Assembly (NCBI RefSeq): GCF_013426915.1
Contig: NZ_AP023182.1
Coordinates: 992,001 to 1,056,000, forward strand
Length of the DNA stretch: 64,000 nucleotides
Source of the DNA: Paraburkholderia sp. PGU19
GTDB lineage: Bacteria > Pseudomonadota > Gammaproteobacteria > Burkholderiales > Burkholderiaceae
Direction of reading: 5' to 3'
This document shows positions 20,008 through 49,281 of the stretch, piece by piece; the stretch's first letter is position 1; each line of letters opens with the position of its first letter. Both the position numbers and the translations under genes were made by a program. Below the pieces are notes generated by a model, which had not been told where the DNA came from, ran no database searches, and saw only the letters and a program-made list of their open reading frames with translations.

Positions 20008-20094
20008 TTCCAATACAGTTCGGAGAAGAAAATCAATACGGTCTGACTGCTGGTTGCAGGCTGTCCAGTGATTGTAGCCGCCGAACTCATTAAA

Positions 20095-20120: not shown

Positions 20121-20122
20121 AC

Positions 20123-26799: not shown

Positions 26800-27576
26800 T
26801 CAGTCTGGTCGGTACTGTCGGCGCAAGCGGTCGGCTGCATCCCGCAGCACTTCCTGGGCGCGTACACCGGTGGCCTCCGAATAGCGCACCGAGGGAATCG
26901 CTAGGTTAAGAGATCCGATCGGAAAGCCCGTTGACGACAGGATTGCAACGCCGATGCCTACGATGCCTGGCGTGTACTCCTCGATGGAAAACGCAACTCC
27001 GCTTTCCCTAATCTGATTCAGTTGATCGACCAGAGATTCTTTTGTCGTGATCGTATTGGGCGTGAACCTCTCGAAGGTCACCGAACGAAGGTATTCGTTC
27101 CGCATGACGTCTGGCAGATGCGCGAGGATGACCTTGCCGCCGGACACTGCGTAGAGCGGGGCGACATCGCCAAGACGTAGGTGCGACAACAGCCTTTGCT
27201 GGCTGCTGACTGTGGCGACGACTTCGACCTGATCGCCTTTGAGCTGATTGAGCGCGCAGGACTCACGCGTCTGGAGCGTGATGTCTGAGAGGAACGGCTC
27301 AGCGCAACTGATCAGGTCGCGCAGCTGAGTGGTCTGCCGGGCAAGCTTGAGCACCGCATCGCCGAGGCAATAGGCTTTTGTCTCCGACACATAGCGGATG
27401 TAGCCCCGTGCCGACAGGCTTTGCAGGAGTTTAGTCAGACTGCTTTTGGGGATGTTGAGAGCTTGTGCGATCTCAGCATGGGACATCTCTCGGCCCCAGT
27501 GCGCCAGCAACTCGAACAGGTCGAGCGTGCGATCCGCCGACTTTACGGAGTTCGCTGTTTCCAGTTCCTGTTTCAT
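26800..27576 (-). CDS. IclR family transcriptional regulator
   Basis: 258 residues: N-terminal winged helix (SADRTLDLFELLAHWG, AEIAQALNIPKSSLTKLLQSL) and a C-terminal IclR effector-binding domain with AVSGGKVILAHLP and GIVGIGVAILSSTGFPIGSLNLAIP. Such regulators commonly control aromatic-acid and sugar catabolism. The open frame extends 58 codons upstream, but the Met at 27576 (MKQELETANSVKSADRTLDL) gives family length. Divergent from the SDR gene that opens the ring-cleavage cluster; palindromes at 27590-27609 and 27727-27736 are likely binding sites. Confidence 0.9.
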   Translation of the reverse strand: MKQELETANSVKSADRTLDLFELLAHWGREMSHAEIAQALNIPKSSLTKLLQSLSARGYIRYVSETKAYCLGDAVLKLARQTTQLRDLISCAEPFLSDITLQTRESCALNQLKGDQVEVVATVSSQQRLLSHLRLGDVAPLYAVSGGKVILAHLPDVMRNEYLRSVTFERFTPNTITTKESLVDQLNQIRESGVAFSIEEYTPGIVGIGVAILSSTGFPIGSLNLAIPSVRYSEATGVRAQEVLRDAADRLRRQYRPD

Positions 27577-27589
27577 CGTTTGACTCAAT

Positions 27590-27609
27590 CTGTTCACATG
27601 TGGGAACAG
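27590..27609. promoter_or_regulatory. Palindrome just upstream of the IclR gene
   Basis: CTGTTCACATGTGGGAACAG: perfect 6-base arms CTGTTC/GAACAG around ACATGTGG. It lies 14 bases from the IclR start. It shares TGGGAACA with the second site near 27727. Candidate autoregulatory operator. Confidence 0.5.
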
Positions 27610-27726
27610 ATTATCTTCGCCCTGATCAACCGTCAACCTGTTGATTATCTTTAATCTTCGCGATATGTCCCTAGCGATGGTCCTCAAAGCGGTGACCAAG
27701 GGAGAACCCTTGTTGTTCCGAGATGG

Positions 27727-27736
27727 GAACATGTTC
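27727..27736. promoter_or_regulatory. Second palindrome before the SDR gene
   Basis: GAACATGTTC is a perfect 10-base palindrome, preceded by TGG as in the first site, and lies about 80 bases upstream of the SDR start at 27818. Two related sites in one divergent region suggest joint control by the IclR protein. Confidence 0.42.
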
Positions 27737-27817
27737 ATCATAGAGAACATCGGAGGCAGTAAGACAGCTTAACCATGCTTTCACAACTTCCAGTCCATCG
27801 CGAGAGAGAAACCCGAC

Positions 27818-28594
27818 ATGCTTGAGGGAAAGACTATCGTTGTCACCGGCGTGGCATCCGGAATCGGTGCAGAGACCGCCAGAACGTTGCGCACCATGGG
27901 CGCCAGCGTAGTGGGCGTAGATCGCGTGACGCCGACGCACGGAGACTGTCACACTTTTCATGAAGCAGACTTGTCCGATCCGCGCGCTATCGATCGACTG
28001 GTCGATGCGCTGCCGTCAGGGCTGAACGGACTGTGCAATATCGCTGGCTTGCCGCCGACGGCGCCGCCCGCGTTCGTGCTGAAGGTCAATGCGCTCGGGC
28101 TCAGGCAACTAACACTTTCGCTTATCCACAAGTTCGCAAACGGCGCGTCGATCGTGAATCTGGCTTCGCTCGCCGGTCTCGACTGGGCGAAATCCTTGAC
28201 CGAGATTGAGGCTTTTCACGATGTCGGCTTCGATGATGTCGACGCGTTCTGCGAACGATTCGACATACACGGTGCGCGGAGCTATTTCTTCTCTAAGGAG
28301 TATCTGATCGCGTGGACCTACGCGAACCGGTGGACGTGGCGAGCTCGGAATATACGTATGAATTGCGTCAGCCCCGGGCCGGTCGAGACACCGATCTTGA
28401 AGGACTTTATTGCGACACTGGGCGCGCGTGTTGAGGAAGACATGAAGATCATGGATCGCTCTGCGACGCCCGCTGACATTGCACCAGTGGTCGCCTTCCT
28501 GCAAACGGATGGCGCACGTTGGTTCAGAGGTGCGAACTTGACCGCTGACGGCGGCATGTCGTCGCACATCGCGCTGGCCCGGCTTGGTCTTTGA
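27818..28594 (+). CDS. SDR-family dehydrogenase (coniferyl-alcohol/3-alpha-hydroxysteroid dehydrogenase-like)
   Basis: 258 residues, NAD-binding TGVASGIG at 10-17, the usual NNAG changed to CNIAG, catalytic Tyr156 and Lys160 (SYFFSKE). The insertion between the catalytic Ser region and Tyr, together with SPGPVETPILKDF, is the pattern of the coniferyl-alcohol dehydrogenase/3-alpha-hydroxysteroid dehydrogenase subgroup. First gene of the cluster divergent from IclR; the next gene starts 26 bases after its stop. The substrate is likely an aryl alcohol or a cyclic alcohol, unproven. Confidence 0.85.
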   Translation: MLEGKTIVVTGVASGIGAETARTLRTMGASVVGVDRVTPTHGDCHTFHEADLSDPRAIDRLVDALPSGLNGLCNIAGLPPTAPPAFVLKVNALGLRQLTLSLIHKFANGASIVNLASLAGLDWAKSLTEIEAFHDVGFDDVDAFCERFDIHGARSYFFSKEYLIAWTYANRWTWRARNIRMNCVSPGPVETPILKDFIATLGARVEEDMKIMDRSATPADIAPVVAFLQTDGARWFRGANLTADGGMSSHIALARLGL

Positions 28595-28620
28595 GCGAAT
28601 TCTATCCGGAGAAGAACACG

Positions 28621-29532
28621 ATGAACACATGGAACCAGGATCGCCACGGCGGTGACACGATGACGTATTCGATCAACGGGCCGCTGCTTATGCCGTTCTC
28701 GAACGTGAGACATCTTCCCTACGCCGAGAAGCTCCGCGCGGCGCAACTTGCCGGCTTCGGCGAGATGTCGCTGCATCCTCATGAAGTTCGCGACGTCATC
28801 GCCGGCGGCACGTCAGCGCGTCAGATGTTGGTGATGGCGGATGACCACGGCGTGCGCATCACACGCCTTGACCCACTGAGCAACTGGAACCCGCACTGGC
28901 TACCCACTAACATGGACGCCAGCTATATCAGGGATTTCAGTATTCCCGCCGTCGAGTTTTTCGAGTTGTGTGAAGAGCTCGGCTGCACGCATGCAAGCCT
29001 CAATGCGACCTTTGCCGCAGGCGTGGTCCCCTTCGACGAAATCGTCGAGCACTATGTGGCGACCTGCAGGCTCGCGAAGGATCACGGCGTCATCTGCGAT
29101 ATCGAAAACCTGCCGATGTGGGGCGTGGCGACGCTCAAGCAGGCGTGGGACATCGTGCTCGCCGCAGACGTGTCCAACGGCGGCCTCGTGTTTGATACGC
29201 TGCACTTCATTCGGAGCCGATCCGACCTCGGCACGTTGGAGTCGATCCCGGGCAGCATGATCCATTGCGTTCAGGTGAACGATGGTCCGCTCGAACTGAC
29301 CCCGGGCAGGCGGCTCGAAGACAATTGTTTTGACCGTCTGTGGCCGGGCGAGGGCGAGTTTCCGCTGGTCGAGATTCTGCGTACGCTCGCACGGACGAAT
29401 GGCCTCAATCAGGTCAACCCGGAAGTGTTTTCCCCGGCCAATTTCGGCAAGCCTGCTGATGAAATCGCTCGCCTTTCGTCGGAGTCTATTCGTCGCGTTC
29501 TGGACCAGGCGGGTATCGCCTGCGCGTCGTAA
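28621..29532 (+). CDS. Sugar phosphate isomerase/epimerase-like TIM-barrel protein
   Basis: 303 residues of the xylose-isomerase-like TIM barrel superfamily (AP_endonuc_2 type). Metal-site style residues occur in ICDIENLPMWG, LVFDTLHFIRS and IHCVQVNDGPLE. ATG 28621 follows CCGGAGAAG at 28607-28615; the frame begins 10 codons earlier. Relatives include hydroxypyruvate isomerase, inosose dehydratase (IolE) and 3-dehydroshikimate dehydratase. The last is notable because it aromatises a cyclic polyol acid, which would suit a neighbouring ring-cleavage gene, but the sequence does not decide the activity. Confidence 0.82.
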   Translation: MNTWNQDRHGGDTMTYSINGPLLMPFSNVRHLPYAEKLRAAQLAGFGEMSLHPHEVRDVIAGGTSARQMLVMADDHGVRITRLDPLSNWNPHWLPTNMDASYIRDFSIPAVEFFELCEELGCTHASLNATFAAGVVPFDEIVEHYVATCRLAKDHGVICDIENLPMWGVATLKQAWDIVLAADVSNGGLVFDTLHFIRSRSDLGTLESIPGSMIHCVQVNDGPLELTPGRRLEDNCFDRLWPGEGEFPLVEILRTLARTNGLNQVNPEVFSPANFGKPADEIARLSSESIRRVLDQAGIACAS

Positions 29533-29550
29533 CGCCAGGAGAACGGGGAC

Positions 29551-30441
29551 ATGGATTCGCACGAGAGCGGATATTTTACGGAAACCACCTCGATCGAGGT
29601 TGTCACCAGGCGTAATAAGAAGGCCACCAATGAGCGGATCAGATTCGCGATGGAGGTCATCACGCGAAAGCTGCATGAGGCGGTGAAGGAGATTGAGCCG
29701 ACGCAGCAAGAATGGCTGCAGGCGATTCTTTTCCTCACAAAGACCGGCCATCTCAGCAACGAATGGCGGCAGGAGTTCATCCTGCTATCGGACGTGCTCG
29801 GCGTGTCGATGCTCGTAGATGCGATCAATCACCGCAAACCGTCGGGCGCGACCGAGAACACTGTGCTTGGCCCATTCCACGTGGAACGTGCGCCCGAGAT
29901 GGAGATGGGCGACAACATTTGTCTCGACCAGAAGGGCGAACCCATGCTCGTGCGCGGCCGGGTCATCGATCTCGCCGGCAATCCGATCGGAAATGCGACG
30001 CTCGACGTTTGGCAGGCAAATGACGAAGGGTTCTACGATGTGCAGCAACGCGGCATTCAACCGGACTTCAATCTGCGAGGCGTATTTCGTACGGAATCCG
30101 ATGGACGCTACTGGTTCAAGGCGGTCAAACCGAAGTTTTATCCGATACCGGATGATGGCACCGTGGGCCGATTGCTCGCGTTGCTGGGGCGGCATCCTTA
30201 CCGACCCGCGCATCTTCATTTCATCGTGAAGGCCGACGGGTTCGAGACGCTCACGACGCACGTATTCGATCCGGACGACCCATATATCGACTCCGACGCA
30301 GTATTCGGTGTCAAGCGGAGTCTGATGGTTCGCTTCGAGCACGTGACTGAAGATGCTCGGCTGGCGGCGTTCGGATTCAGCGAGCCATTCTGGGAAGTCG
30401 AATATGACTTTGTGATGGCGCAAGCGGGACCACACAACTGA
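29551..30441 (+). CDS. Intradiol ring-cleavage dioxygenase, probable hydroxyquinol 1,2-dioxygenase
   Basis: 296 residues; Fe(III) enzyme that opens a benzenetriol or catechol ring between the two hydroxyls. Iron ligands are visible: Tyr162 (GFYDVQ), Tyr197 (KFYPIP), His221 and His223 (PAHLHF). The N-terminal dimer domain contains LLSDVLGVSMLVDAINHR, typical of the hydroxyquinol subgroup, whose product is maleylacetate. A maleylacetate reductase gene lies 9.5 kb downstream in the same direction, which supports this call over catechol dioxygenase. Nineteen bases separate it from the isomerase-like gene. Confidence 0.9.
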   Translation: MDSHESGYFTETTSIEVVTRRNKKATNERIRFAMEVITRKLHEAVKEIEPTQQEWLQAILFLTKTGHLSNEWRQEFILLSDVLGVSMLVDAINHRKPSGATENTVLGPFHVERAPEMEMGDNICLDQKGEPMLVRGRVIDLAGNPIGNATLDVWQANDEGFYDVQQRGIQPDFNLRGVFRTESDGRYWFKAVKPKFYPIPDDGTVGRLLALLGRHPYRPAHLHFIVKADGFETLTTHVFDPDDPYIDSDAVFGVKRSLMVRFEHVTEDARLAAFGFSEPFWEVEYDFVMAQAGPHN

Positions 30442-30484
30442 CAACGGCCACGCGATTTACCTACGACGGACAACAGGAGAACAC

Positions 30485-31108
30485 ATGTCAGAAAGCAGCG
30501 AAATCTTCGAGCGGCTCGCGATCCGGGACCTGCTCGAGGACTGGGTAGTCCTGCGTGATGCAGGCGACTGGAAAGGCTTCCGTCAGGTCTGGCACGATGA
30601 TGGCCGCATGATGGCGACGTGGACGCAGGGCACCGCAGACGAGTTCATTGCGATGAGCGTGGCGGGCTGGGAGAAGGGCGTCAGCATTCTGCACTTTCTC
30701 GGCGGAACGTCGATCAGGATCGCGGGCAATCGCGCCATTGCACAAACCAAGATGACGATCTCGCAGCGCGGCATGCTCGACGGCGTGCTCTGCGATGTCG
30801 TCTGCACGGGGCGTTTCTATGATTTCCTGGAAAAGCGCGACGGACGCTGGGGCCTAGTGTTGCGTCAGCCCATCTACGAAAAGGACCGCGCTGACCCAGT
30901 TGATCCTTCTGCGACGCTTAAGCTGGATGAAACTTTGCTTACGCAATTTCCTGTCGGCTATCGGCACTTGGCCTATCTGCAATCGCAGATAGGCTACAAG
31001 GTGAAGTTGAGGATGCCGGGCCTCAAGGGACCGGAAGTGGAGGCGCTATACGAATGCGGGCGACAATATCTTCTCAACGAAGCACCGGCCATGCTGCCGG
31101 AATTCTAA
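30485..31108 (+). CDS. NTF2/SnoaL-like protein
   Basis: 207 residues with a SnoaL-like cone-fold N-terminal part (IRDLLEDWVVLRDAGDWKGFRQVWHDDGRMM, and FYDFLEKRDGRWGLVLRQPIYEKD). Such proteins serve as small isomerases, dehydratases or ring-hydroxylating subunits in aromatic pathways. No catalytic residue set is certain. A good ribosome binding site (ACAGGAG) precedes the start; the aldehyde dehydrogenase starts 9 bases after its stop. Confidence 0.75.
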   Translation: MSESSEIFERLAIRDLLEDWVVLRDAGDWKGFRQVWHDDGRMMATWTQGTADEFIAMSVAGWEKGVSILHFLGGTSIRIAGNRAIAQTKMTISQRGMLDGVLCDVVCTGRFYDFLEKRDGRWGLVLRQPIYEKDRADPVDPSATLKLDETLLTQFPVGYRHLAYLQSQIGYKVKLRMPGLKGPEVEALYECGRQYLLNEAPAMLPEF

Positions 31109-31117
31109 GGAGCCGAC

Positions 31118-32566
31118 GTGGCATCGATCAATCTCTTCATTAACGGCGCCGATTCACCTGCGGCTAGCGGAATGACCTTCGTTCGTTCGAATCCTATTAG
31201 CGGCGAGCCGGTTAGCACCGCCGCGGCCGCGGCTCCTGCCGATGCCGTCCGAGCGGTCGAAGCAGCTGCAGCGGCATTTCCCGCCTGGTCGGCCACGCCG
31301 CCCGGTGCGCGTCGTGAAGCGTTGTTCCGTGCAGCCGAACGTCTGCTGGAATCGAGCGAAGCCATCGTGGCAATGATGGTTCGGGAAACGGGTGCAGCCA
31401 AAAGCTGGGCGAGTTTCAACGTCAAGCTTGGCTGCGACCTACTGCGCGAAGCCGGCGCAATGACGACCCAGCTGACTGGCGACGTCATTCCGACCGAAAA
31501 GGCTGGTTGCCTATCGATCGCATCGCGTGAACCCTGGGGCGTATGCTTGGGCATGGCGCCTTGGAACGCCCCAATCGTGCTGTTCGTGCGCGCGTTCGCG
31601 ATGGCGGTGGCTTGCGGTAATACCGTTGTGCTCAAGTCGTCGGAGCTTTGTCCGGCGACGCACTACCTGATCACGAAAGCCGTGACGGAGGGCATTTTTC
31701 CGCCCGGCGTGATCAACCTCGTCAGCCACGCGGCCGAGGATGCACCGGAGATCGTGCAATGCCTGATCGCTCATCCGGCGGTGCGTCACATCAATTTCAC
31801 TGGGTCGAGCCATGTGGGGAGCATTATCGCGCGTCAGGCGGGTGAACTGCTCAAGCCCGTCCTGCTGGAACTGGGCGGGAAGTCCCCGCTCGTCGTGCTC
31901 GACGACGCCAACATCGACGACGCCGTCGACGCGGCCATCTTCGGCGCGTTCATGCATCAGGGGCAGATTTGCATGGCCACCGGGCGCGTAATCGTACTCG
32001 ATGAAATCGCTGACGAGTTCGTCGCGCGATTCGCAAAGAGGGCGGCGGGTCTCGAAGCGGGCGACCCGTCCAAGGGTGCGACGCTCGGTGCGCTGATCGG
32101 CGAGGCCTCGGCGCAGCGCGTCGGCAAGCTTATCGACGACGCGATCACGAAGGGCGCGCAGCGCAAGTCCGGTGGCATGCAGCAAGGTGCGATCATGGAC
32201 GCCACGGTGCTGGATCGCGTAACGCCAGAGATGGACATATATAGAGCCGAAGCTTTCGGGCCGGTCGTTCCTGTCATCCGGGTTCGAGACGACGACGAAG
32301 CCGTTCGAGTCGCCAATGATACGGAATATGGCCTGTCCGCTGCCGTTTTCAGCCAAAACATTGACCGGGCGCTCGGGGTCAGCCGGCGCATCGAGAGCGG
32401 TATCTGCCATATCAACGGTCCGACAATCCAGGACGAAGCACAGATTCCATTTGGCGGGGTGAAAGCGAGCGGCTACGGTCGCTTCGGCGGGCGCGGCGGG
32501 GTGGAGTCCTTCACCTATTCGCGCTGGATCACCATCGAAACGAAAAAACCTCACTACCCGTTCTAA
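31118..32566 (+). CDS. Aldehyde dehydrogenase, vanillin/salicylaldehyde dehydrogenase-like
   Basis: 482 residues. Catalytic Asn150 (APWNAP), Glu251 (LLELGGKSP) and Cys285 (HQGQICMATGR) are all present. The C-terminal block HINGPTIQDEAQIPFGGVKASGYGRFGG is typical of benzaldehyde, vanillin and salicylaldehyde dehydrogenases, so oxidation of an aromatic aldehyde to the acid is the best guess. It follows the SnoaL-like gene by 9 bases and ends the first block of the cluster; a short GC hairpin lies downstream at 32584-32602. Confidence 0.9.
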   Translation: MASINLFINGADSPAASGMTFVRSNPISGEPVSTAAAAAPADAVRAVEAAAAAFPAWSATPPGARREALFRAAERLLESSEAIVAMMVRETGAAKSWASFNVKLGCDLLREAGAMTTQLTGDVIPTEKAGCLSIASREPWGVCLGMAPWNAPIVLFVRAFAMAVACGNTVVLKSSELCPATHYLITKAVTEGIFPPGVINLVSHAAEDAPEIVQCLIAHPAVRHINFTGSSHVGSIIARQAGELLKPVLLELGGKSPLVVLDDANIDDAVDAAIFGAFMHQGQICMATGRVIVLDEIADEFVARFAKRAAGLEAGDPSKGATLGALIGEASAQRVGKLIDDAITKGAQRKSGGMQQGAIMDATVLDRVTPEMDIYRAEAFGPVVPVIRVRDDDEAVRVANDTEYGLSAAVFSQNIDRALGVSRRIESGICHINGPTIQDEAQIPFGGVKASGYGRFGGRGGVESFTYSRWITIETKKPHYPF

Positions 32567-32583
32567 ATGCCAAGGTGACGACG

Positions 32584-32602
32584 CGGGCCGCCTGCTGGCC
32601 CG
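32584..32602 (+). terminator. Possible terminator/attenuator hairpin before the ABC importer
   Basis: CGGGCC (32584-32589), 7-base loop, GGCCCG (32597-32602), followed by an AT-rich stretch rather than a T-run. It lies between the aldehyde dehydrogenase and the ABC binding protein and may reduce read-through. Confidence 0.35.
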
Positions 32603-32685
32603 TGGATCTTATAAGGCTGTACACGTAGGATGCCTAACTTTATTGTTGTTCAATTTATTAAATTAGCTCAATACGGAGACAAGCA

Positions 32686-33807
32686 ATGATCAAGAACTCG
32701 CTCAGATGGTCGGGTAGCGCAGGCAGGCTTGCGCGTGTGGCGTCGCGGTGCGCGGCGTCCCTGGCTGTGGCGTTGTCGTTCTCACCGGCACAGGCAGCGC
32801 CGGCAAAAGTGCCTGCGATCTACTTCGGGATCGGCACAGAATCGAGTGAGTACTGGGCGGCAACTGTTGTCGGCGCAAAGGCGGTCGCGGCATCCGTCAA
32901 TGCTAGATTGCAGGTGATGACGAGCGAGTTTCAGGGACAGAAATTCTTGCAGGATTACGGTGCGATTTTCGCCGCGGGCTGCAAGGATTGCGTGGCGATT
33001 CTCGATCCTGTGTCCAGTGCGTTCACCAAGGCGATCGTCGACCGCGCTACTTCAGCGGACGCCAAGATCATCACGATCTGGAACCGTCCCGATAACATTC
33101 ACCCGTATGACCTGGATCCGTCCAACTGGATCGCGCATATTGCATTCGACGGCGTCGAATCGGGATATCGCAATGGAATGGCCTTATGCAAGGCAATTGG
33201 TGGCTCGGGCGGCGTCGTGGCTATCGAAGGCGTGGCGGACAATCCATCAACCAAGCAGCGCTTCGCGGGCTTGAAGAAGGCGATGGCAGAGTGCCCAGGG
33301 ATGAAATTGCTGGATCGCCAGTATGCGGACTGGGATCAAACCAAAGCGCAAGTACTGACGCGCGGATGGCTGGCGCGCTACGGCAACACCCTGAAAGCCG
33401 TTTTCTCCGAGAATGATTCGATGGCGATCGGCGCGATCGGCGCGATCGCGGCGCTCAAGGAGCGCGGACTCGCGGGGAAGGTTGCCGTGTCCGGAAGCGA
33501 TGGCTCCATCGCGGCGCTGAATCTGATCAAGTCAGGCGACATGGTATCGACCATGTGGATCGATGGCGTGATGCAGGGCGCATTTGCAACCGCGCTCGGC
33601 TACGGCGCGGCCACGGGCGACATCGACGTGCAAAAGCTTTCGCACGCCCAACGCGATGTCTACCTCAAGCAGACGCTAGTCACGAAGGAGAATGTCGACG
33701 ACATTCTGAATCGAAAGGTCGATCCCGCCGATTACACGTACGAAAAGGTCAAGGCACGGATGTGGCAGAGCGTGGCGAGCCAGATTCCGCCGGCGGCCTT
33801 CAAATGA
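32686..33807 (+). CDS. Carbohydrate-type ABC transporter substrate-binding protein
   Basis: 373 residues with an Arg-rich signal peptide of about 37 residues ending AQAAPA. The mature protein is a RbsB/Peripla_BP_4-type binding protein: YFGIGTESSEYWAATVVGAKA, CVAILDPVSSAFTKAIVDRA, GVVAIEGVADNPSTKQR, KAVFSENDSMAIGAIGAI. ATG preceded by CGGAGAC at about 32674-32680. It heads a four-gene importer. The carbohydrate class suggests a sugar, cyclitol or glycoside as cargo, though some members of the class carry aromatic compounds. Confidence 0.9.
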   Translation: MIKNSLRWSGSAGRLARVASRCAASLAVALSFSPAQAAPAKVPAIYFGIGTESSEYWAATVVGAKAVAASVNARLQVMTSEFQGQKFLQDYGAIFAAGCKDCVAILDPVSSAFTKAIVDRATSADAKIITIWNRPDNIHPYDLDPSNWIAHIAFDGVESGYRNGMALCKAIGGSGGVVAIEGVADNPSTKQRFAGLKKAMAECPGMKLLDRQYADWDQTKAQVLTRGWLARYGNTLKAVFSENDSMAIGAIGAIAALKERGLAGKVAVSGSDGSIAALNLIKSGDMVSTMWIDGVMQGAFATALGYGAATGDIDVQKLSHAQRDVYLKQTLVTKENVDDILNRKVDPADYTYEKVKARMWQSVASQIPPAAFK

Positions 33808-33877
33808 GTCGAGCGGCAGGCGTCGCGCCTGCCGCCAGACGATCCGAAACCTGCGTTTTTTGTGTCCGTTAGAAACC

Positions 33878-34840
33878 ATGAACCTGTTTCGTCATCATCT
33901 TCGCGAGCGGGGATCCCTCCTCGTGTTGCTGGGCCTAGTCGTGCTCTTTTCGTGCGCCGGCGATGGTTTCGCGAGCGCCGACAACCTGCTATCCGTCCTC
34001 GAGACGAGCGCAATTCCGTCGATTGCGGCGGTAGGCCTCACCTTTGTCATGCTTCAAGGCTCGATCGATCTTTCTATCGAAGGTATTGCGTCGCTCGCCT
34101 GCATTCTGACCGGACTGTACGTGGCCAACTCAATCACCGGCCACCACAATCTGCCTGTCGCCCTGATCGTCGCGCTGGGAGCGGGTCTGTTGTTCGGCCC
34201 GTTCAACGGGCTGATGTACGCGAAACTGCGCATCCCGTCTCTCATCGTAACGCTGGGAACCTGGTTCGTCGCTGGTGGCCTTGCCACCTACTTGTTCCCG
34301 TCGCGGCAGCCGCAAATTACTGACGACGCCTTTCTCTCCATAGCGCTGACCAAACACTTCGGACTGAGCGGCATTGTCTACGTGGCCGTGTTCGTGATCG
34401 CGGTGGCCTATGTGATCCAGACCCGTACCCGCGTTGGGCGTCTCAGTTTCGGGATCGGCGCGGACGAACGGCTGGTTCGGCTTGCGGGACTGAAGGTCGA
34501 GCGCATCAAACTTGTCGTGTTCGCGATGTCGGGATTCTTGTCTGCCTTGTGTGGGTTGCTGCTGGCGGCGCAACTCGGCGTAGGCAATCCGCGTGCCGGC
34601 GACGGCCTGCTGTTTCCTGCGGTCAGCGCAGCGGTGATCGGTGGCACGCTGCTCAGCGGCGGACGGGGCGGTGTGTTGCAGACGCTGACTGGTGTGCTGA
34701 TTCTGTCCGTGCTGCGTAACGGTCTGCTGCAGGTCGGAATGGATCCGCTGTTGATTCAAATCGTCGAGGGCGCCACCATCGTCCTTGCTGTCGTGGCTGG
34801 CTCCTGGCACCTGCGTGCAAAACTGAGGGTCGCGAAATGA
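33878..34840 (+). CDS. Carbohydrate-type ABC permease 1
   Basis: RbsC-family inner-membrane permease, 320 residues with about eight to ten hydrophobic segments. Family marks are GSIDLSIEGIASLACILTG, LRIPSLIVTLGTWFVAGG and AVIGGTLLSGGRGG. The start ATG 33878 is chosen over upstream frame positions because the hydrophobic first helix follows directly. Its stop overlaps the ATPase start (ATGA), indicating coupling. Confidence 0.92.
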   Translation: MNLFRHHLRERGSLLVLLGLVVLFSCAGDGFASADNLLSVLETSAIPSIAAVGLTFVMLQGSIDLSIEGIASLACILTGLYVANSITGHHNLPVALIVALGAGLLFGPFNGLMYAKLRIPSLIVTLGTWFVAGGLATYLFPSRQPQITDDAFLSIALTKHFGLSGIVYVAVFVIAVAYVIQTRTRVGRLSFGIGADERLVRLAGLKVERIKLVVFAMSGFLSALCGLLLAAQLGVGNPRAGDGLLFPAVSAAVIGGTLLSGGRGGVLQTLTGVLILSVLRNGLLQVGMDPLLIQIVEGATIVLAVVAGSWHLRAKLRVAK

Positions 34841-36357
34841 CGCTACCGATCTATGAAATCCGAGGGTTGACTAAGCGCTTTGGCAGGGTGACAGCGCTGG
34901 ACCAGGTTGATCTGAGACTGAACGCCAACGAAGTCGTTGGTCTCATTGGACAGAACGGCTCCGGCAAGTCGTCGCTCATGAAGACCATGGCTGGCGTGCA
35001 GATGGCCGACGAAGGGGCGATGCTGTTGCGGGGGCAGGAAGTGCGCTGGCGTTCGACGGCTGAAGCCGCGCGCCGCGGTATCGGTCTCGTGCATCAAGAG
35101 CAGTCGCTGATCCCGAACCTGACAGTCGCGGAGAATATTTTCCTCGATAAGTCATGTTCGTTCTTCCGGCATGGATGGTATTGCTGGAAAGACCTGCTTG
35201 CTGCCGCGCGGATTCAGCTCGACAAGATCGAACTCGACATTCGCCCGGATATGTTGGTCGAGCGACTAGGCTTCGCGCAGCGCCAGATGGTGGAACTCGC
35301 CAAGGTGCTGTCGCTGGAGGAAATGGTGGACGATGATCTGGTGATCATGTTCGACGAACCGACATCGATGTTGAGCGATCCTGAAATCGAGGACCTGTTC
35401 AACCAGATACGCCGCATCCGGCACCGCGCGTCGGTCGTTTTCATTTCACACCGAATGGACGAGGTGCTCGAACTTTCCGACCGGGTCTACGTGTTGAGCG
35501 ATGGCAGGCAGGTCGCGCAGCGCACGAAGGGACACGTCGATGCGCAGGAGCTCTACGAACTGATGGTCGGAAAGCAGCGAAGCACGGTGAAGCGTACGGC
35601 GACGCCTAACGCAAGCGACCGGCGCGAGGCCGTGCTGTGGCTTGACGAGGTCCGCATTGACGGCGACGTCGGTCCGATATCCGTGCGCGTGGGGGTGGGT
35701 GAAATCGTAGGCTTGATTGGCGTGCAGGGTTCCGGTGCGGAAACGCTGTGCCGCTCGTTGTTCGGGCTGGAGGAGGTGCGTAGCGGTGTGGTGTCGTTTG
35801 AGGACGAAAAGGTCACCATCCGTTCGCCGGCGGACGCGATACGACGCGGCATAGGGTATCTACCCGCTGAACGCAAGAAGGAGGGCATGCTCGCGGGCAT
35901 GAGCATCGCAGACAACATGACGCTCACATTCGGATTTGACTATGCGCGCGCGGGCGTCCTCGCAGACCGGGCGAAAGAGCATGCGCAGGCGCAACGCTGG
36001 GTGTCGCGGCTGAAAGTGAAAGCGCCGTCGCTAGACGAAAATATCGAGCGCCTGAGCGGTGGCAATCAGCAAAAAGCCGTGCTCGGAAAATGGCTGATGA
36101 GCCGAAATCTGAAGCTGCTGATTATGGATCATCCGACGCGCGGGCTCGACCCCGGCGCGCGAGCCGATCTGTTCGAAACTATGGGGGAAATGGCAGCCGA
36201 TGGCCTGTCGATCCTATTCGTCGCGGACACCCTGGACGAGGTCCTCCTAGTCAGCGACACGATCGTGGTTATGCGTGATGGCCAGATCAGCGCCACTTTC
36301 GAGAACGTCGCATCTGCGGCGCCCGCCGAAGAGACCATCGTGAGAGCTATGGTATGA
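34837..36357 (+). CDS. Carbohydrate-type ABC ATPase with two nucleotide-binding domains
   Basis: 506 residues, RbsA/MglA architecture. The first domain has Walker A GQNGSGKSS and Walker B LVIMFDEPTSML with a degenerate signature (LGFAQRQMVELAKVLS). The second has the usual degenerate Walker A (GVQGSGAETL, no Lys) and a good signature LSGGNQQKAVLGKWL followed by LLIMDHPTRGLDPGAR. Overlaps both flanking permease genes by four bases, so the order permease-ATPase-permease forms one coupled unit. Confidence 0.94.
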   Translation: MTLPIYEIRGLTKRFGRVTALDQVDLRLNANEVVGLIGQNGSGKSSLMKTMAGVQMADEGAMLLRGQEVRWRSTAEAARRGIGLVHQEQSLIPNLTVAENIFLDKSCSFFRHGWYCWKDLLAAARIQLDKIELDIRPDMLVERLGFAQRQMVELAKVLSLEEMVDDDLVIMFDEPTSMLSDPEIEDLFNQIRRIRHRASVVFISHRMDEVLELSDRVYVLSDGRQVAQRTKGHVDAQELYELMVGKQRSTVKRTATPNASDRREAVLWLDEVRIDGDVGPISVRVGVGEIVGLIGVQGSGAETLCRSLFGLEEVRSGVVSFEDEKVTIRSPADAIRRGIGYLPAERKKEGMLAGMSIADNMTLTFGFDYARAGVLADRAKEHAQAQRWVSRLKVKAPSLDENIERLSGGNQQKAVLGKWLMSRNLKLLIMDHPTRGLDPGARADLFETMGEMAADGLSILFVADTLDEVLLVSDTIVVMRDGQISATFENVASAAPAEETIVRAMV

Positions 36358-37361
36358 AACTATCTCAATTTTCGCTTGGCAATGAGCACTCAGGCAACGC
36401 CGAGCCGAACCACGCGTCATGGCAAATCCGGCTCGCCGCGTTGCGAACCGCAGGCCCCCTTTTCGTGCTGCTTTGTCTCGTTCTAGTTGTCGCCGTTTTG
36501 TCTCCGTCGGCGCTTTCGATGCATTCGCTCGCATCGTTCTCCATTGACGCCGCACCCTTGCTGTTGCTGGTGATGGGCAGCACGATCCCTATCCTGATCG
36601 GCGGCATCGACCTGTCGGTCGCCGCCATGGCAACGATCGCGGGCGTAAGCGTGAGCCTCTTCGCGCCCGCGATTGGATCATGGGCCGTGCCCGCCACGCT
36701 CGGACTCGGACTCGCAGTCGGAGCATTACAAGGCTTCGTCCACGCTAAATGCCAAGTACCTTCGTTTGCCGTGAGCCTCGGTACGTTGGGTATCCTTTCT
36801 GGCCTTGCTATGTATTTGACCGGCGCGTCTTCCGTGCCGATCGACACCGGTTTGCGCATCTTCGATTTCATCACCGCGTCGAGTCTGGGCATTCCACATT
36901 GCGTGTTCATAGTGCTGATCGTCTGGATGTTGCTGGTTTTCGCCATGCGCTATCTGAAGCTCGGACGACACGTCTATGCACTCGGCATTCACGAGCGCGC
37001 CGCCGTGATGTCGGGCGTCGATGCGCTGAAAACTCGCGTCGTGGTTTTCGCACTCTCCGCGCTATGCGCGTCCATGGCAGGCGTTTTGTATGTCTCACAG
37101 ACGCTCTTTTCATCGCCGACGCTGGCCCAAACGATGGTCCTGCCAGCGATCGTCGGCGTGGTGCTCGGTGGGACTGCGATTTCGGGCGGTGTCGGAAGCA
37201 TCGCAATGAGCATCGTGGGCGGGCTGACAGCGGCATTCCTGCGGATTGCTTCGGTGGTGATCGGCCTGCCGCCAACCACGCAGGACATCGTGTACGGACT
37301 GGTCGTGTTGGCTGCCGTCGCGCTTACGCTGGATCGCGAGAAGCTCGGCATCGTCAAATAG
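36354..37361 (+). CDS. Carbohydrate-type ABC permease 2
   Basis: Second RbsC-family permease, 335 residues. Marks include GSTIPILIGGIDLSVAAMATIAG, CQVPSFAVSLGTLGILSGLAMYL and AIVGVVLGGTAISGGVGSIAMS. Two different permeases imply a heterodimeric channel. Start overlaps the ATPase stop (ATGA). A dehydrogenase gene begins 37 bases after its stop. Confidence 0.92.
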   Translation: MKLSQFSLGNEHSGNAEPNHASWQIRLAALRTAGPLFVLLCLVLVVAVLSPSALSMHSLASFSIDAAPLLLLVMGSTIPILIGGIDLSVAAMATIAGVSVSLFAPAIGSWAVPATLGLGLAVGALQGFVHAKCQVPSFAVSLGTLGILSGLAMYLTGASSVPIDTGLRIFDFITASSLGIPHCVFIVLIVWMLLVFAMRYLKLGRHVYALGIHERAAVMSGVDALKTRVVVFALSALCASMAGVLYVSQTLFSSPTLAQTMVLPAIVGVVLGGTAISGGVGSIAMSIVGGLTAAFLRIASVVIGLPPTTQDIVYGLVVLAAVALTLDREKLGIVK

Positions 37362-37398
37362 TCGGCTAGGCCGGCGCTCTTGAGTGAGGAGGAAAACG

Positions 37399-38151
37399 AT
37401 GAGTGATTCGACACCGGGGGTCGCCCTTGTGACTGGAGCGTCGCGTGGGCTGGGCGTGGCGATGGCCAAAGCCTTGGCGCGCGACGGATGGACGGTCGCG
37501 GTGAACTATGCGCGCGATACCTGCGGAGCGGAGCGGGTCGTGGAGGACATCGTCCACGCAGGCGGGCGAGCGCTTGCCGCTCGCTTCGACGTGACGGATG
37601 AGCACGCGGTGCGCGAGGGAATTGCGCGCATCGCAGCCACGATTGGCCCAGTCGACGTTGTCGTAAATAACGCTACCGGGCCTCAACCCTACATCGCGTT
37701 ATCTGAACAGACGTGGGAAGACCATCTCGACCAGCTGCGGTTCTTCGTGAAGGCGCCGCTTCTGCTGCTGCAGGCCGTACTACCTGACTGGCGCAGCCGC
37801 AAGACGGGCCGCGTCATCAACATCGGTAGTGAGGTGGTGGAAATTGGCAATCCGCTGTTTGGCCACTATGTCGCGGCGAAGGGCGCCATGCTAGGGCTGA
37901 CCCGCTCGTGGGCGCGCGAACTCGGACCGGAAGGTATCCCAGTCAATCTGGTCGCACCAGGCTGGATCCCAGTGGAACGCCATCGAGATAGCGATCCGCA
38001 AATGCTGGAGGACTATCGGAGGCAGGTCGCCTTCGAGCGGATCGGTTCGCCCGATGATGTCGCCTCTCTGGTGGCTTATCTCGCGTCGAACGAGGCCAAT
38101 TTCATTACTGGACAGACATTCGCCGTGAACGGTGGACGTACGCTTGCCTGA
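37399..38151 (+). CDS. SDR-family oxidoreductase (FabG-like)
   Basis: 250 residues, TGASRGLG at 12-19, NNAT at 90-93 in place of NNAG, catalytic Ser144, Tyr157 and Lys161. The family end FITGQTFAVNGGRTLA is complete. ATG 37399 is preceded by GAGGAGGAAA. Read in the same direction as the importer and the following MocA-type gene, so it probably oxidises a hydroxyl group of the imported compound. Confidence 0.87.
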   Translation: MSDSTPGVALVTGASRGLGVAMAKALARDGWTVAVNYARDTCGAERVVEDIVHAGGRALAARFDVTDEHAVREGIARIAATIGPVDVVVNNATGPQPYIALSEQTWEDHLDQLRFFVKAPLLLLQAVLPDWRSRKTGRVINIGSEVVEIGNPLFGHYVAAKGAMLGLTRSWARELGPEGIPVNLVAPGWIPVERHRDSDPQMLEDYRRQVAFERIGSPDDVASLVAYLASNEANFITGQTFAVNGGRTLA

Positions 38152-38186
38152 TTGGCGAGTTTCAACCGACGACATTACATACAACC

Positions 38187-39197
38187 ATGCCCAAATATCT
38201 TTCGCTTTGTCTCATTGGCGCGGGACGCATAGCCAAGGTTCACATCAGGTCAATAGCAGCGCTTGGGGGCGCAGAGATCACGGCCGTCGTCGATCCGGCG
38301 AACGAGGCCGGTGAGCGCGTGGCCGCTTCAATTGGCGCACGATGGTATTCGGACTTTGAGCAGGCGTGTGCCGCGCAGGTATTTGACGGCGCGATCATAG
38401 CGGCGCCCACCGGTTTGCACGCGTCGCTTATCGAAGCGTGTGTCCGACGCGGGCTGCCGGTATTTTGCGAGAAACCTGTCGATCAGACGCTGGAACGTGT
38501 GGACGCGTGCCTCGAAGTCGTCGAGGCTTCGGGTGTACCCGTGCTGATGGCATTTCATCGTCGCTTCGATGCTGCCCGGCGCGAAGTCCACGATATCGTG
38601 CGTTCGGGTACGTTGGGCAAAATCGAACATGTGTTGCAGATCAGCCGCGATCCGAGATTGCCGGACGAAAGCTTCATTGCCCATTCCGGTGGAATGGTCA
38701 AGGACATGCTGATTCACGACCTGGACGAACTTACTTGGCTATGCGGAACCGGAGGCGTCTTTGTGCACGCCGATCTGCGACGCTTCGTCGATCCGCCGTT
38801 GCTCGCAAAGTACGAAGACTTCGATACGGCGGCCATCACCGTCGTATTCGATGATGGTCCGCAATGCCAGCTTTCGGCAAGCCGACGTTCGGCCTATGGC
38901 TTCGACCAGCGGCTTGAAGTGTTCGGCGCAAACGGCATGGTGACTTGCCCGAACGTGCATACCAGTACGATTATCTCGGCGGCCCGGGAGGGCTTTTGTG
39001 GCGCGCCCTTGCTCGATCACTTTCCGCAGCGCTACGAGGCCGCTTATGCAGCTGAAATGCGGAATTTCCTCGATGTGCTGAACGACACCGCGAAGCCTCA
39101 TTGCACGGTGCGCGACGCACGCGCGGCGCTCGTCCTCGCGGAACTGGTGATTAAGTCTGCGCGGACCGGCAAGCGCGTGCGAGCCGATCGACTGTGA
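38187..39197 (+). CDS. Gfo/Idh/MocA family oxidoreductase
   Basis: 336 residues. N-terminal Rossmann fold (CLIGAGRIAKVHIRSI), the EKP motif in VFCEKPVDQTL and a C-terminal domain with GGMVKDMLIHDLDELTWLCG, including the usual DxxxHD-like helix (MLIHDLDE). Inositol 2-dehydrogenase (IolG) and scyllo-inositol dehydrogenases belong here; HRRFDAARRE is also common in IolG-like proteins. With the sugar-type importer and isomerase-like enzyme it points to a cyclitol or sugar substrate. NAD(P)-dependent; specificity not evident. Confidence 0.88.
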   Translation: MPKYLSLCLIGAGRIAKVHIRSIAALGGAEITAVVDPANEAGERVAASIGARWYSDFEQACAAQVFDGAIIAAPTGLHASLIEACVRRGLPVFCEKPVDQTLERVDACLEVVEASGVPVLMAFHRRFDAARREVHDIVRSGTLGKIEHVLQISRDPRLPDESFIAHSGGMVKDMLIHDLDELTWLCGTGGVFVHADLRRFVDPPLLAKYEDFDTAAITVVFDDGPQCQLSASRRSAYGFDQRLEVFGANGMVTCPNVHTSTIISAAREGFCGAPLLDHFPQRYEAAYAAEMRNFLDVLNDTAKPHCTVRDARAALVLAELVIKSARTGKRVRADRL

Positions 39198-39242
39198 CGA
39201 TTCTCCGTGAATCCGCGATCTTGCAATCGGATAGTTCTAGAC

Positions 39243-39585
39243 TTACGCAAGGCGCATTGGTACCGATGGATTTCTGAGTGCACGGCGGACGAAATCGTCA
39301 AGCATTTCCTGTTTCACCTGATAGAGCGTACGCCTAATCTGCCGGGCTATGTCGCCGAGACAGCGCTGTGCTGGCGATGTGGTTTCGCTGGATGTGCTCC
39401 TTGCGGCACTGGCAACGTGCAAGCCCCGTGATCTGTTTGATCTCGCGGTGAAACTGCTCGATCTTCCAGCGCAGGCCGCACACGTCTTGTGTCGCCGGTG
39501 AGTCGTGAGTAAGTCGTTGGTGACGACCCAGTCCGTGCGGTGTGTGGACATCTCTACCTGGAAGGAGCAACTGGGCACCAGCCGC
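39243..39585 (-). pseudogene. C-terminal remnant of an IS4/IS701-type transposase, frameshifted
   Basis: Three minus-strand reading frames together give the end of a DDE transposase: STHRTDWVVTNDL, then QDVCGLRWKIEQFHREIKQ followed by TGLARCQCRKEHIQRNHIA, then RTLYQVKQEMLDDFVRRALRNPSVPM and a stop at 39243. Intact relatives have these in one frame. At least two frameshifts and the absence of the N-terminal two thirds show it is a dead fragment. It lies exactly between the MocA-type gene and the Dabb/maleylacetate reductase pair, so an IS event may have rearranged this cluster. Confidence 0.72.
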
Positions 39586-39629
39586 ACGCTCGATTATGAA
39601 CTTGTCCTCAACCCGTCGGAGAAAGACGA

Positions 39630-39980
39630 ATGATTCGGCATATTGTGATGTGGCGCGTACGTGGTGAGACGGATGGGGAGCGCATTGCTGCCTCAAGACT
39701 CGTTAAAAGCAGTTTCGAGGAATTACGCGGTCGGATCCCGGGGCTACTCAGTCTTGAGGTCGGAATTGATCTTAGTGACGTTGATTGCGCATGCGACGTG
39801 GTGCTTTTGACTGACTTTGACTCACGCGAGGCCCTTGCGGTGTATGCGACGCATCCCGAGCACTTGCGTGTTCGGACGTTGCTCGGAGATCTCAGAACGG
39901 CGCGATTTCAAGTCGACTATGAGGTGGAAGCTGCGGCAGTTTGCGCTACTATTGCGGAGCGTGTAGATGAAAAAGCTTGA
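39630..39980 (+). CDS. Dabb (stress-responsive alpha/beta barrel) domain protein
   Basis: 116 residues; a single Dabb domain: MIRHIVMWRVRGE, LRGRIPGLLSLEVGIDLS, DVVLLTDFDSREALAVYATHPEHLRV. These dimeric ferredoxin-like proteins often act as small accessory enzymes in aromatic and polyketide pathways; one example is EthD-like and lactonising partners near maleylacetate reductases. It overlaps the start of the reductase by 14 bases, so the two are coupled. Confidence 0.85.
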   Translation: MIRHIVMWRVRGETDGERIAASRLVKSSFEELRGRIPGLLSLEVGIDLSDVDCACDVVLLTDFDSREALAVYATHPEHLRVRTLLGDLRTARFQVDYEVEAAAVCATIAERVDEKA

Positions 39981-41030
39981 GTTTGCATTTGAGTCACACG
40001 CGAGCCGCGTAGTTTTTGGTTCCGGCTGTTTGCAACATCTCGAACGTGAGGTTACAGCTCTTGGCGCTGAGCGCGCGCTGGTCTTATGCACCCCGGAGCA
40101 ACGAACGACTGCTGAATTGGTCGCGGCGTCATTAGGAGCGCGCGGAGTTGCGGTATTCGACAAGGCTACGATGCACGTACCCATCGAACTGGCACTTGAA
40201 GCGCGTGCAATGGCGCGGGATCTGGGCGCTGATTGCGCTGTAGCGGTTGGGGAGGGTCTACGATCGGTCTGGGGAAGGCAATAGCGATGGAAACCGGACT
40301 TCCCATCATAGCGATTCCGACAACCTACGCCGGGAGCGAAATGACGTCGATCTATGGAATCACCGAAGGTGGAATCAAGAGGACGGGGAGAGATCCGAAG
40401 GTTCTTCCGAAAACTGTTATATACGATCCCGACCTAACGGTCACGCTTCCGGTAGCGCTATCTGTCACTAGTGGCATCAATGCGATCGCGCACGCAGCTG
40501 AGGCTCTATACGCGCAAGATGCAAATCCAATAATCAGCCTCATGTCTGAGGAAGGGATCGGTGCACTGGCTCAAGCCATCCCTGCGATTGTCGGGAACGC
40601 TCTCGATGTAGATGCACGTGCTCAGGCGCTGTATGGTGCGTGGCTATGCGGTGCTGCCTTGGGCAGCGTCGGGATGTCGCTTCATCACAAGCTATGTCAT
40701 ACGCTTGGAGGAAGCTTCAATCTACCGCATGCTTCGACTCATACTATCGTTCTCCCTCATGTGCTGGCTTACAACAAATGGGCTGCCCCAGATGCGTTGC
40801 GACGAATTGCACGTGCGATAAAAGTTCCCGATGCCGCTGCCGGGCTTTATGCACTTGCAAAAGAGAACGGCGCTCCGACTGCGCTAAAAGAAATTGGCAT
40901 GAAGCAGGAAGACGTTGCTAAAGCCGCGGAAATTGCAACGGCCGATCCCTACTGGAATCCGCGCTCGATCGAGCGCGATGCGATTCATTCCTTATTACAA
41001 GACGCATTCGACGGAACCTGCCCGCATTGA
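39967..41030 (+). pseudogene. Maleylacetate reductase with a one-base frameshift
   Basis: Iron-containing alcohol dehydrogenase family; reduces maleylacetate to 3-oxoadipate with NAD(P)H, the step after hydroxyquinol ring cleavage. The first frame reads MKKLEFAFESHASRVVFGSG to DCAVAVG and then leaves register; the second resumes STIGLGKAIAMETGLPIIAIPTTYAGSEMT and continues to the end with the family motif MSLHHKLCHTLGGSFNLPHA. The expected AVGGGSTIGLGKA is restored by adding one G to the run GGGG at 40249-40252. Either the gene is inactive, the base is a sequencing error, or slippage at the run restores some product. Otherwise full length, about 355 residues. Confidence 0.88.
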
Positions 41031-47804: not shown

Positions 47805-47816
47805 GTGCAGGTTGGC

Positions 47817-49232: not shown

Positions 49233-49281
49233 GATGGGTGTTCGACGCAATGGTGCGGCTGCCTGCGTGCGCATCGGCGTG

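Follow-up and report, generated by a model that had tools for sequence, protein, structure and literature searches.

A Paraburkholderia operon that may link cyclitol aromatisation to hydroxyquinol ring cleavage

Introduction

In the quinate/shikimate route, a ring polyol is oxidised and then dehydrated to a phenol by an AP_endonuc_2 barrel (QuiC1 or QsuB); QuiC1 has a second domain and yields protocatechuate. The catabolism of myo-inositol (iol) combines a sugar-type ABC importer with an IolG-like dehydrogenase and a TIM-barrel dehydratase, and the hydroxyquinol lower pathway employs 6-chlorohydroxyquinol dioxygenase or PnpC together with maleylacetate reductase (MAR). Clusters for resorcinol and gamma-resorcylate decarboxylate an acid en route to hydroxyquinol with an amidohydrolase decarboxylase and a hydroxylase, and a different type of decarboxylase is found in the fungal proteins AGDC1 (gallate) and PPP2 (protocatechuate). 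A gene cluster of Paraburkholderia sp. PGU19 that resembles each of these systems in part is analysed here. It is located on contig C4 of a genome of 11.2 Mb in 5 contigs, and the 64,000 nucleotides at positions 992001-1056000 of that contig are referred to as the window.

The cluster resembles the quinate/shikimate route in that a ring polyol would be oxidised and dehydrated to a phenol by an AP_endonuc_2 barrel whose metal ligands are those of QuiC1. It differs in that this barrel lacks the second domain and several active-site residues of QuiC1, that its proposed product is a trihydroxybenzyl compound and that a predicted decarboxylase and hydroxyquinol cleavage are added. With iol catabolism it has the importer type, the IolG-like dehydrogenase and the TIM-barrel dehydratase in common, and two relatives of its importer block are encoded near IolD; the cluster itself is without IolD, and the ring would be opened by an aromatic ring dioxygenase instead. 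The dioxygenase group and MAR are those of the hydroxyquinol lower pathway, but no hydroxyquinol-forming monooxygenase was found in the cluster. Decarboxylation of an acid would be common to the resorcinol-type clusters, whose amidohydrolase decarboxylase and hydroxylase were not found among the cluster genes; the candidate decarboxylase is instead a bacterial member of the fold family of AGDC1 and PPP2. The proposed route can be described as a variant of quinate-type aromatising alicyclic catabolism with a carboxylated intermediate. A first-pass annotation made from the sequence knew of no described pathway with this combination, and the open-licence literature yielded none either: among the papers listed, judged by title and opening of the abstract, no route from cyclitol, valienol or validamycin breakdown to hydroxyquinol cleavage was found, nor any work joining hydroxyquinol with inositol dehydrogenase, and the one paper that joins it with dehydroshikimate dehydratase deals with protocatechuate toxicity, which does not prove absence in print.

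A proposed route from a C7 cyclitol to hydroxyquinol

The gene set consists of a divergent IclR-family regulator gene and 11 co-directional genes on the plus strand (window 26800-39197; Table 1). All 11 have open reading frames, and their spacing ranges from -4 (overlap) to 119 bases, with the widest gap of 119 bases directly upstream of the gene for the substrate-binding protein (SBP). The genes, their families, conserved residues and linkage are the basis on which we infer reactions, their order and a substrate. The reading that we favour, tentatively and at a little below an even chance, is that a single operon converts a C7 cyclitol to hydroxyquinol and cleaves its ring. The IclR protein would regulate the whole catabolic operon, and the ribose-type (CUT2) ABC importer would take up a neutral ring polyol. 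The Gfo/Idh/MocA dehydrogenase (MocA), with or without the second short-chain dehydrogenase/reductase (SDR2), would oxidise one or more ring hydroxyls to a ketone, and the QuiC-like TIM barrel would eliminate water and thereby make the ring aromatic; for a valienol-type compound, a C1 ketone and one beta-elimination would give 2,4,5-trihydroxybenzyl alcohol. SDR1 and then the aldehyde dehydrogenase (ALDH) would convert the exocyclic CH2OH group to the aldehyde and the carboxylate, and the SnoaL_4 protein (SnoaL) would remove CO2 in the manner of a gallate decarboxylase, giving hydroxyquinol. The intradiol dioxygenase (IDO) would open hydroxyquinol to maleylacetate, which MAR would reduce to 3-oxoadipate.

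The products that candidate cyclitols can give by oxidation and subsequent beta-elimination were enumerated with a script. For quercitol, a ketone adjacent to the CH2 group and two dehydrations led to hydroxyquinol alone; inositol, oxidised and dehydrated twice, yielded tetrahydroxybenzenes. The C1 ketone of valienol gave with one dehydration a benzyl alcohol with hydroxyls at valienol C1, C2 and C4 (2,4,5-trihydroxy), which corresponds to hydroxyquinol once the exocyclic carbon is lost; the C4 ketone also led to hydroxyquinol after carbon loss, and the C2 and C3 ketones to pyrogallol. The window holds exactly the extra enzymes that such a carbon loss would call for, namely a predicted alcohol dehydrogenase, aldehyde dehydrogenase and decarboxylase. 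Because SnoaL and the SDR1/ALDH pair point to a carboxylated aromatic intermediate that is lost by decarboxylation, a C7 compound is preferred over a C6 ring compound, and we infer that the substrate fitting every enzyme is a C7 (hydroxymethyl) cyclitol of the valienol/carba-sugar class, free or as a derivative. According to the available text of PMC7081202, an actinomycete sets free large amounts of valienol and 1-epi-valienol, an ecological link that is suggestive only.

Two other assignments were rejected. Plain myo-inositol, discarded as the main reading, would give tetrahydroxybenzenes and leave SDR1, ALDH and SnoaL idle. In Pfam/NCBIfam scans no IolD was found among the cluster genes, and since the genome has its own IolD on contig C1 (922 bits, the sole one over the cut-off), inositol would not need the operon. 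An ordinary aromatic pathway would require a ring hydroxylase, and no such family was found among the cluster genes or in the 20 flanking proteins scanned, which are part of the flanking genes (one of them, 22667-24217, had no family).

Predicted functions of the cluster enzymes

The best PDB match of the dioxygenase is 6-chlorohydroxyquinol dioxygenase (8r2x, 328 bits), followed at 233-268 bits by PnpC, hydroxyquinol dioxygenases and one protein named only intradiol dioxygenase. Four of the five best matches are thus named (chloro)hydroxyquinol dioxygenase or PnpC, and the best catechol 1,2-dioxygenase in the PDB reaches 128 bits. By these matches, IDO belongs to the hydroxyquinol 1,2-dioxygenase group, and activity on 1,2,4-trihydroxybenzene is predicted for it.

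For SnoaL, the only PDB matches at E<=0.01 were the fungal decarboxylases PPP2 (7jmr, E 2e-28) and AGDC1 (6w54, E 7e-26), with 37% and 31% identity over the aligned part, respectively. The available text of PMC7862292 gives W35, R39, D40, T60, W61, H86, Y150 and Q192 as substrate-binding and catalytic residues of AGDC1, notes that its His-Asp dyad is common to scytalone dehydratase, and describes E88 as holding potassium, with a dead E88A mutant, and Y146 as lying near the extra hydroxyl of gallate. Out of these 10 residues, SnoaL keeps the first eight, including the His-Asp dyad (H86, D40), the Trp clamp (W35, W61) and the carboxylate-binding Arg; at the position of the potassium ligand E88 it has Leu, and Y146 is replaced by Arg. 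The eight kept residues and both replacements are likewise present in the 27 distinct other bacterial homologues aligned (44 rows, with the window gene repeated once and 16 homologues standing twice; local matches of <=150 amino acids excluded). SnoaL is therefore not filed as a strict AGDC1 member, given the Leu at E88, and is proposed to be a decarboxylase that works like AGDC1.

The genomic context of SnoaL was analysed at 11 plasmid loci among the 17 records listed at >=57% identity; the other six records (H23, H25, H26, H28, H32 and H35) belong to the same species or genus as examined ones, and none of 36 further records reached 60%. A dioxygenase gene lies within 3 kb of the SnoaL gene at 8 of these 11 loci, PREW-6R (see below) included. 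SnoaL is accompanied by both a dioxygenase and MAR in Shinella, S. meliloti Rm41, Caballeronia NK8, Agrobacterium, R. erythropolis, S. americanum, Embleya and PREW-6R. The linkage is absent at the B. elkanii and Cupriavidus P-10 loci, and in P. hospita the dioxygenase is 5 kb away. In another genome (G009), homologues of SnoaL, MAR, the dioxygenase, the TIM barrel and IclR are clustered. Several of the SnoaL-dioxygenase clusters have further genes for a TIM barrel, for a protein of the MocA or SDR type or, in S. meliloti and S. americanum, for a type II dehydroquinate dehydratase, so that the conversion of polyols to phenols may be a repeated theme next to the dioxygenase.

Two Sinorhizobium plasmids (L030 and L038) carry SnoaL, a hydroxyquinol-type dioxygenase and a TIM barrel together with type II 3-dehydroquinate dehydratase and enolase-superfamily proteins, possibly a route from a quinate-like acid to hydroxyquinol. 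SnoaL was also considered as a dedicated marker of hydroxyquinol clusters and discarded, as only 1 of 16 matches (15 other Burkholderiales genomes) stands beside a dioxygenase and MAR.

The TIM barrel matches QuiC1 (5hmq) and IolI in profile searches, both ranking below the Listeria protein Lmo2234. Its alignment with 5hmq was read by eye, with the residue numbering checked by spacing. Glu134, Asp165, Gln191 and Glu239 of QuiC1, which we take to be the metal site, are all present. Among the ten active-site residues of QuiC1/QsuB listed in the available text of PMC7442255, the window protein keeps these four and Leu136, His168 and Arg210, and Arg64, Leu97 and Ser206 are replaced. With a single domain and 56 bits against a curated cut-off of 1200, it is not a QuiC in the strict sense.

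SDR1 scores 296.8 bits on NCBIfam NF009092 (cut-off 242), which places it in the coniferyl-alcohol dehydrogenase subfamily. On three Rhizobium plasmids, SDR1 homologues (47-55% identity) are encoded directly upstream of ALDHs that are 57-59% identical to the window ALDH; these are three of the four loci examined for the two proteins, and the fourth, found through ALDH, has no such pair. SDR1 and ALDH are proposed to form a recurrent alcohol-to-acid pair.

The importer consists of a Peripla_BP_4 protein, two BPD_transp_2 permeases and a double ABC ATPase, as is typical for the CUT2 class. SBP is 55-58% identical to proteins in clusters with IolD. Seven SBP loci (38-58% identity) were examined, and two of them, RCAM05350 and NGR234, also hold SDR2 homologues (61% and 64%) beside the same importer. 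In these two rhizobia, IolD lies at a distance of about 2 and 12 kb from SBP and exceeds its cut-off (786 and 801 bits), IolE-like genes remain below theirs (163 and 171 bits against 290), and NGR234 additionally has IolG over the cut-off; the RCAM05350 copy has several fragmented genes. The best PDB matches of MocA are mostly inositol dehydrogenases.

MAR is the one component that is not intact. The first-pass annotation had correctly recognised the family, yet its N- and C-terminal parts lie in two frames separated by a frameshift, which may be a sequencing error in the form of a one-base slip. On contig C2 of the same genome, a MAR frame that is open over 363 codons adjoins a second dioxygenase gene, and this MAR copy would supply the activity in this strain if the frameshift is real. 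Dabb and MAR have a GC content of 0.549 compared with 0.599 for the operon, and the two MAR pieces are just 55% and 65% identical to MAR of PREW-6R, compared with at least 71% for the other genes; for these reasons the window Dabb-MAR pair probably comes from another hydroxyquinol locus. Dabb lies beside a dioxygenase in two oak Pseudomonas (57% identity), Paucimonas (54%) and P. hospita (63%), and in the latter IDO, Dabb and MAR adjoin each other.

Conservation of the cluster and a separate assembly in other genera

Gene-neighbourhood conservation, which the first-pass annotation had suggested as a check, was found in Paraburkholderia sp. PREW-6R (locus L009). IclR and all 11 operon genes occur there in the same order, nearly full length and with 71-88% protein identity, and an intact MAR frame of 357 amino acids begins 23 bases past MocA. 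Dabb has no match in this cluster stretch. Collinearity at the DNA level covers window 26828-39170 and then ends, except for a short match within MAR, and no other called gene of the 31-kb PREW-6R stretch matches any called window gene. The combination is rare. With cut-offs of E<=1e-20 for TIM and E<=1e-80 for SBP, each was detected in 2 of 299 family genomes, one being the window's own, and TIM at E<=1e-70 was found class-wide in 1 of 369 genomes, again that of the window. As the block is both rare and collinear in PREW-6R amid unmatched flanks, it seems to travel and to be kept as one unit. The regulator is 71% identical to its PREW-6R counterpart, 65% and 68% identical to IclR proteins of SnoaL-MAR-dioxygenase-TIM clusters in Caballeronia NK8 and genome G009, and 51% identical to that of S. 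americanum. Separate occurrence of the importer/MocA block and the dioxygenase block in relatives had been named as an argument against a joint system; the two halves stand together in both Paraburkholderia and each of them alone in distant relatives.

A second association was detected in Pseudomonas daroniae, P. dryadis and Paucimonas, where TIM, a second TIM barrel, IolG-like and Gfo proteins and a ChvE-type sugar importer are joined to IDO, Dabb and MAR. Family assignments were run mainly on the Paucimonas proteins, to which the Pseudomonas proteins were matched; the Paucimonas MocA homologue passes TIGR04380 with 399.7 bits. Each of the three genomes has a single IDO match (E<=1e-60) and a single MAR match (E<=1e-40), located on opposite sides of the cluster in the two Pseudomonas and together on one side, about 1.2 kb apart, in Paucimonas. 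No SnoaL homologue was found in the three genomes at E<=1e-10, in a search without its own positive control; the same query at a stricter cut-off matched 16 of 399 genomes. The same functional combination thus appears to have been assembled separately in these genera, and the form without a SnoaL_4 match and with a second TIM barrel is what a C6 substrate would call for. Quercitol is abundant in oaks. The title of a reference in PMC10491777 gives oak as the source of P. daroniae and P. dryadis, which is suggestive only as ecology.

Evaluation of alternative explanations

A number of observations weigh against the C7 cyclitol route. MAR is broken in the window, MocA scores 330.6 bits on TIGR04380, just below the cut-off of 355 for a strict IolG, and the E88 and Y146 replacements in SnoaL affect the potassium ligand and a residue close to the substrate. 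In 15 of 16 Burkholderiales matches, SnoaL homologues with the same residues (44-65% identity) stand away from a dioxygenase or MAR, some flanks being cut short by the end of a contig, which shows that the decarboxylase-like family also occurs in other settings. The TIM family was represented by at least 19 loci from an exact-pattern genome scan, 14 of them at >=47% identity, and only 3 of these 14 are linked to a dioxygenase; of six further TIM genomes searched for IDO, one has it in its genome, and for the remaining five only the locus itself was examined. A Mesorhizobium TIM gene is found beside HisD-like, GMC and thiamine-diphosphate enzymes instead of a dioxygenase. Outside Paraburkholderia, the plasmid dioxygenases most similar to IDO (R. 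brockwellii, 75%) lie beside an FAD monooxygenase, an ordinary aromatic context that makes a conventional aromatic origin of the lower half possible. IolD was not found at five of the seven SBP loci within flanks of 9-10 kb, which are too short to have caught that of NGR234, and SBP relatives are located beside gentisate-type genes in Phaeobacter (47%) and beside CoA-transferase/MaoC genes in A. tumefaciens (51%).

MocA-type dehydrogenases paired with AP_endonuc_2 barrels also occur in glycoside oxidation/elimination systems. The operon could accordingly import a hydroxylated benzyl alcohol or aldehyde in glycosidic form, with MocA, SDR2 and TIM stripping the sugar by beta-elimination of a 3-keto glycoside and SDR1, ALDH, SnoaL, IDO and MAR degrading the aglycone. 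SDR1-ALDH pairs elsewhere accompany branched-chain-type ABC importers, and the Phaeobacter SBP relative occurs with an ALDH relative, a GMC oxidoreductase and the gentisate-type genes. However, the aglycone would have to arrive trihydroxylated at a cluster without a ring hydroxylase, MocA is IolG-like and not glycoside-dehydrogenase-like, the cluster genes (frames of >=100 amino acids scanned) showed neither a glycoside hydrolase nor any other partner family, and two rhizobia have the importer block in the vicinity of IolD, which leaves this explanation unlikely. We consider it slightly less probable still that hydroxyquinol arises from a deoxy-cyclitol such as quercitol by oxidation and the loss of two water molecules, with TIM and SnoaL, whose fold is scytalone-dehydratase-like, both acting as dehydratases and SDR1/ALDH as accessory enzymes. 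A ketone next to CH2 followed by two beta-eliminations does lead to hydroxyquinol only, the dyad of AGDC1 is that of scytalone dehydratase, and the oak Pseudomonas and Paucimonas, with two TIM barrels and no SnoaL detected, fit such chemistry, as does the quercitol of oaks. SnoaL nevertheless keeps the Trp clamp and the carboxylate-binding Arg of a decarboxylase, and the SDR1-ALDH pair of the window cluster would be left unexplained.

The separate occurrence of each half in distant relatives, together with the position of the widest operon gap directly before SBP, would also agree with two unrelated adjacent modules, one for cyclitol or sugar uptake and oxidation (SBP to MocA) and one leading from an aromatic aldehyde or acid to hydroxyquinol (SDR1 to ALDH plus MAR). 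This seems improbable in view of PREW-6R, where the two halves are collinear, MAR closes the cluster at the far end and the flanks are unmatched, and of the separate assembly of the same functional combination in Pseudomonas and Paucimonas. Least probable among these explanations, and doubtful at best, is a decaying remnant that no longer works here, having lost its own MAR and retained a broken Dabb-MAR copy: the frameshift and a transposase relic speak for it, whereas the 11 operon genes are open, contig C2 offers an open MAR frame beside its dioxygenase and the one-base slip can be a sequencing error.

Gene content and neighbouring genes

The families named by the first-pass annotation were all recovered at the places it gave (Table 1). 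In addition, the divergent IclR gene belongs to the set, and a transposase relic lies between MocA and Dabb.

Table 1. Features of the cluster, with window positions and the basis of each assignment
Feature	Position	Strand	Basis
IclR-family regulator, divergent	26800..27750	-	Pfam IclR_C + HTH_IclR
SDR1, coniferyl-alcohol-dehydrogenase-type; proposed benzyl alcohol to aldehyde	27818..28594	+	NCBIfam NF009092
TIM barrel; proposed metal-dependent ring-aromatising dehydratase	28591..29532, start probably ATG 28621	+	Pfam AP_endonuc_2
Intradiol dioxygenase (IDO), hydroxyquinol 1,2-dioxygenase group	29551..30441	+	PDB matches
SnoaL_4 protein; proposed cofactor-free hydroxybenzoate decarboxylase, AGDC1 type	30485..31108	+	PDB matches, residues
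Aldehyde dehydrogenase (ALDH); proposed aryl aldehyde to acid	31118..32566	+	Pfam Aldedh, 484 bits
Substrate-binding protein (SBP), ribose-type (CUT2) ABC importer	32686..33807	+	Pfam Peripla_BP_4
ABC permease	33860..34840, ATG possible at 33878	+	Pfam BPD_transp_2
Sugar ABC ATPase	34837..36357	+	Pfam ABC_tran, two stretches
ABC permease, second	36354..37361	+	Pfam BPD_transp_2
SDR2, FabG-like; proposed ring-hydroxyl dehydrogenase	37384..38151	+	Pfam adh_short_C2
Gfo/Idh/MocA dehydrogenase (MocA), IolG-like; proposed cyclitol dehydrogenase	38187..39197	+	TIGR04380, PDB
Transposase relic, end of conserved block	39334..39696	-	DDE_Tnp_1, E 1.8e-5, 25.1 bits (cut-off 23)
Dabb protein	39630..39980	+	Pfam Dabb
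Maleylacetate reductase (MAR), N-terminal part, frame 1	39967..40284	+	Pfam Fe-ADH
MAR, C-terminal part, different frame	40233..41030	+	Pfam ADH_Fe_C

Several relatives of the cluster genes occur in other settings. The same TIM subfamily is encoded at three loci of Mesorhizobium and Aestuariivirga (L012, L014 and L016) with HisD-like, thiamine-diphosphate and other enzymes and a polyamine-type importer, but without a dioxygenase; L012 was typed by Pfam/NCBIfam and the other two by gene clustering alone, and the loci may represent a ring-compound pathway that does without the dioxygenase. The plasmid of Phaeobacter sp. G2 (L039, 1-13534) combines a CUT2 importer of the window type with a GMC oxidoreductase, an ALDH (52%) and gentisate-type ring-cleavage genes; its sugar-type importer possibly serves an aromatic or C7 ring compound. 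Within the window, an adenylate/guanylate cyclase domain fused to an alpha/beta hydrolase domain (24869-26317) and an IS240-type transposase (21668-22306), a second mobile-element trace near the operon, were identified. Further away are type VI secretion genes (47049-63195; PP2C, an FHA-domain protein, VasE (TssK), a protein kinase, ImpA_N and the VipB sheath) and a 4-hydroxyphenylpyruvate-dioxygenase-like protein adjoining a Peripla_BP_6 binding protein (9-2224). Two proline-racemase-family proteins, a DAO oxidase, an ALDH, a family-3 binding protein, a GntR-aminotransferase regulator and a class-III aminotransferase (8769-21451) are perhaps involved in the catabolism of hydroxyproline or proline isomers.

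Conclusions

The first-pass annotation had offered, as one reading, that a cyclic polyol is aromatised to hydroxyquinol and then ring-opened. The collinear cluster of PREW-6R, the assembly in Pseudomonas and Paucimonas, and the IolD, IolE-like and IolG-type neighbours in two rhizobia support this direction, which is the best supported one; the acid and its decarboxylation had been missed. A broader and more speculative proposal, which we hold to be possible though well short of even odds, is that soil and plant bacteria follow an as yet undescribed strategy in which cyclitols are aromatised on purpose into hydroxyquinol cleavage, and that such systems arose by assembly on two or more occasions. 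The oak Pseudomonas and Paucimonas would have a C6 form, with two dehydratase barrels and a quercitol-like substrate. Paraburkholderia would have a C7 form for hydroxymethyl cyclitols or carba-sugars, in which the exocyclic carbon would be converted to a carboxylate and then split off by a bacterial enzyme of the gallate-decarboxylase type.

To our knowledge, the catabolic genes for carba-sugars and deoxy-cyclitols are poorly known, and the proposed route, if true, would explain how soil bacteria could feed on these compounds. It would constitute a second enzymatic way from ring polyols to aromatics beside that from quinate/shikimate to protocatechuate. The bacterial SnoaL/NTF2 family is large, as all 8000 candidates scored matched at E<=0.001, and the route would suggest for it a cofactor-free decarboxylase function that may be useful for making benzenetriols.

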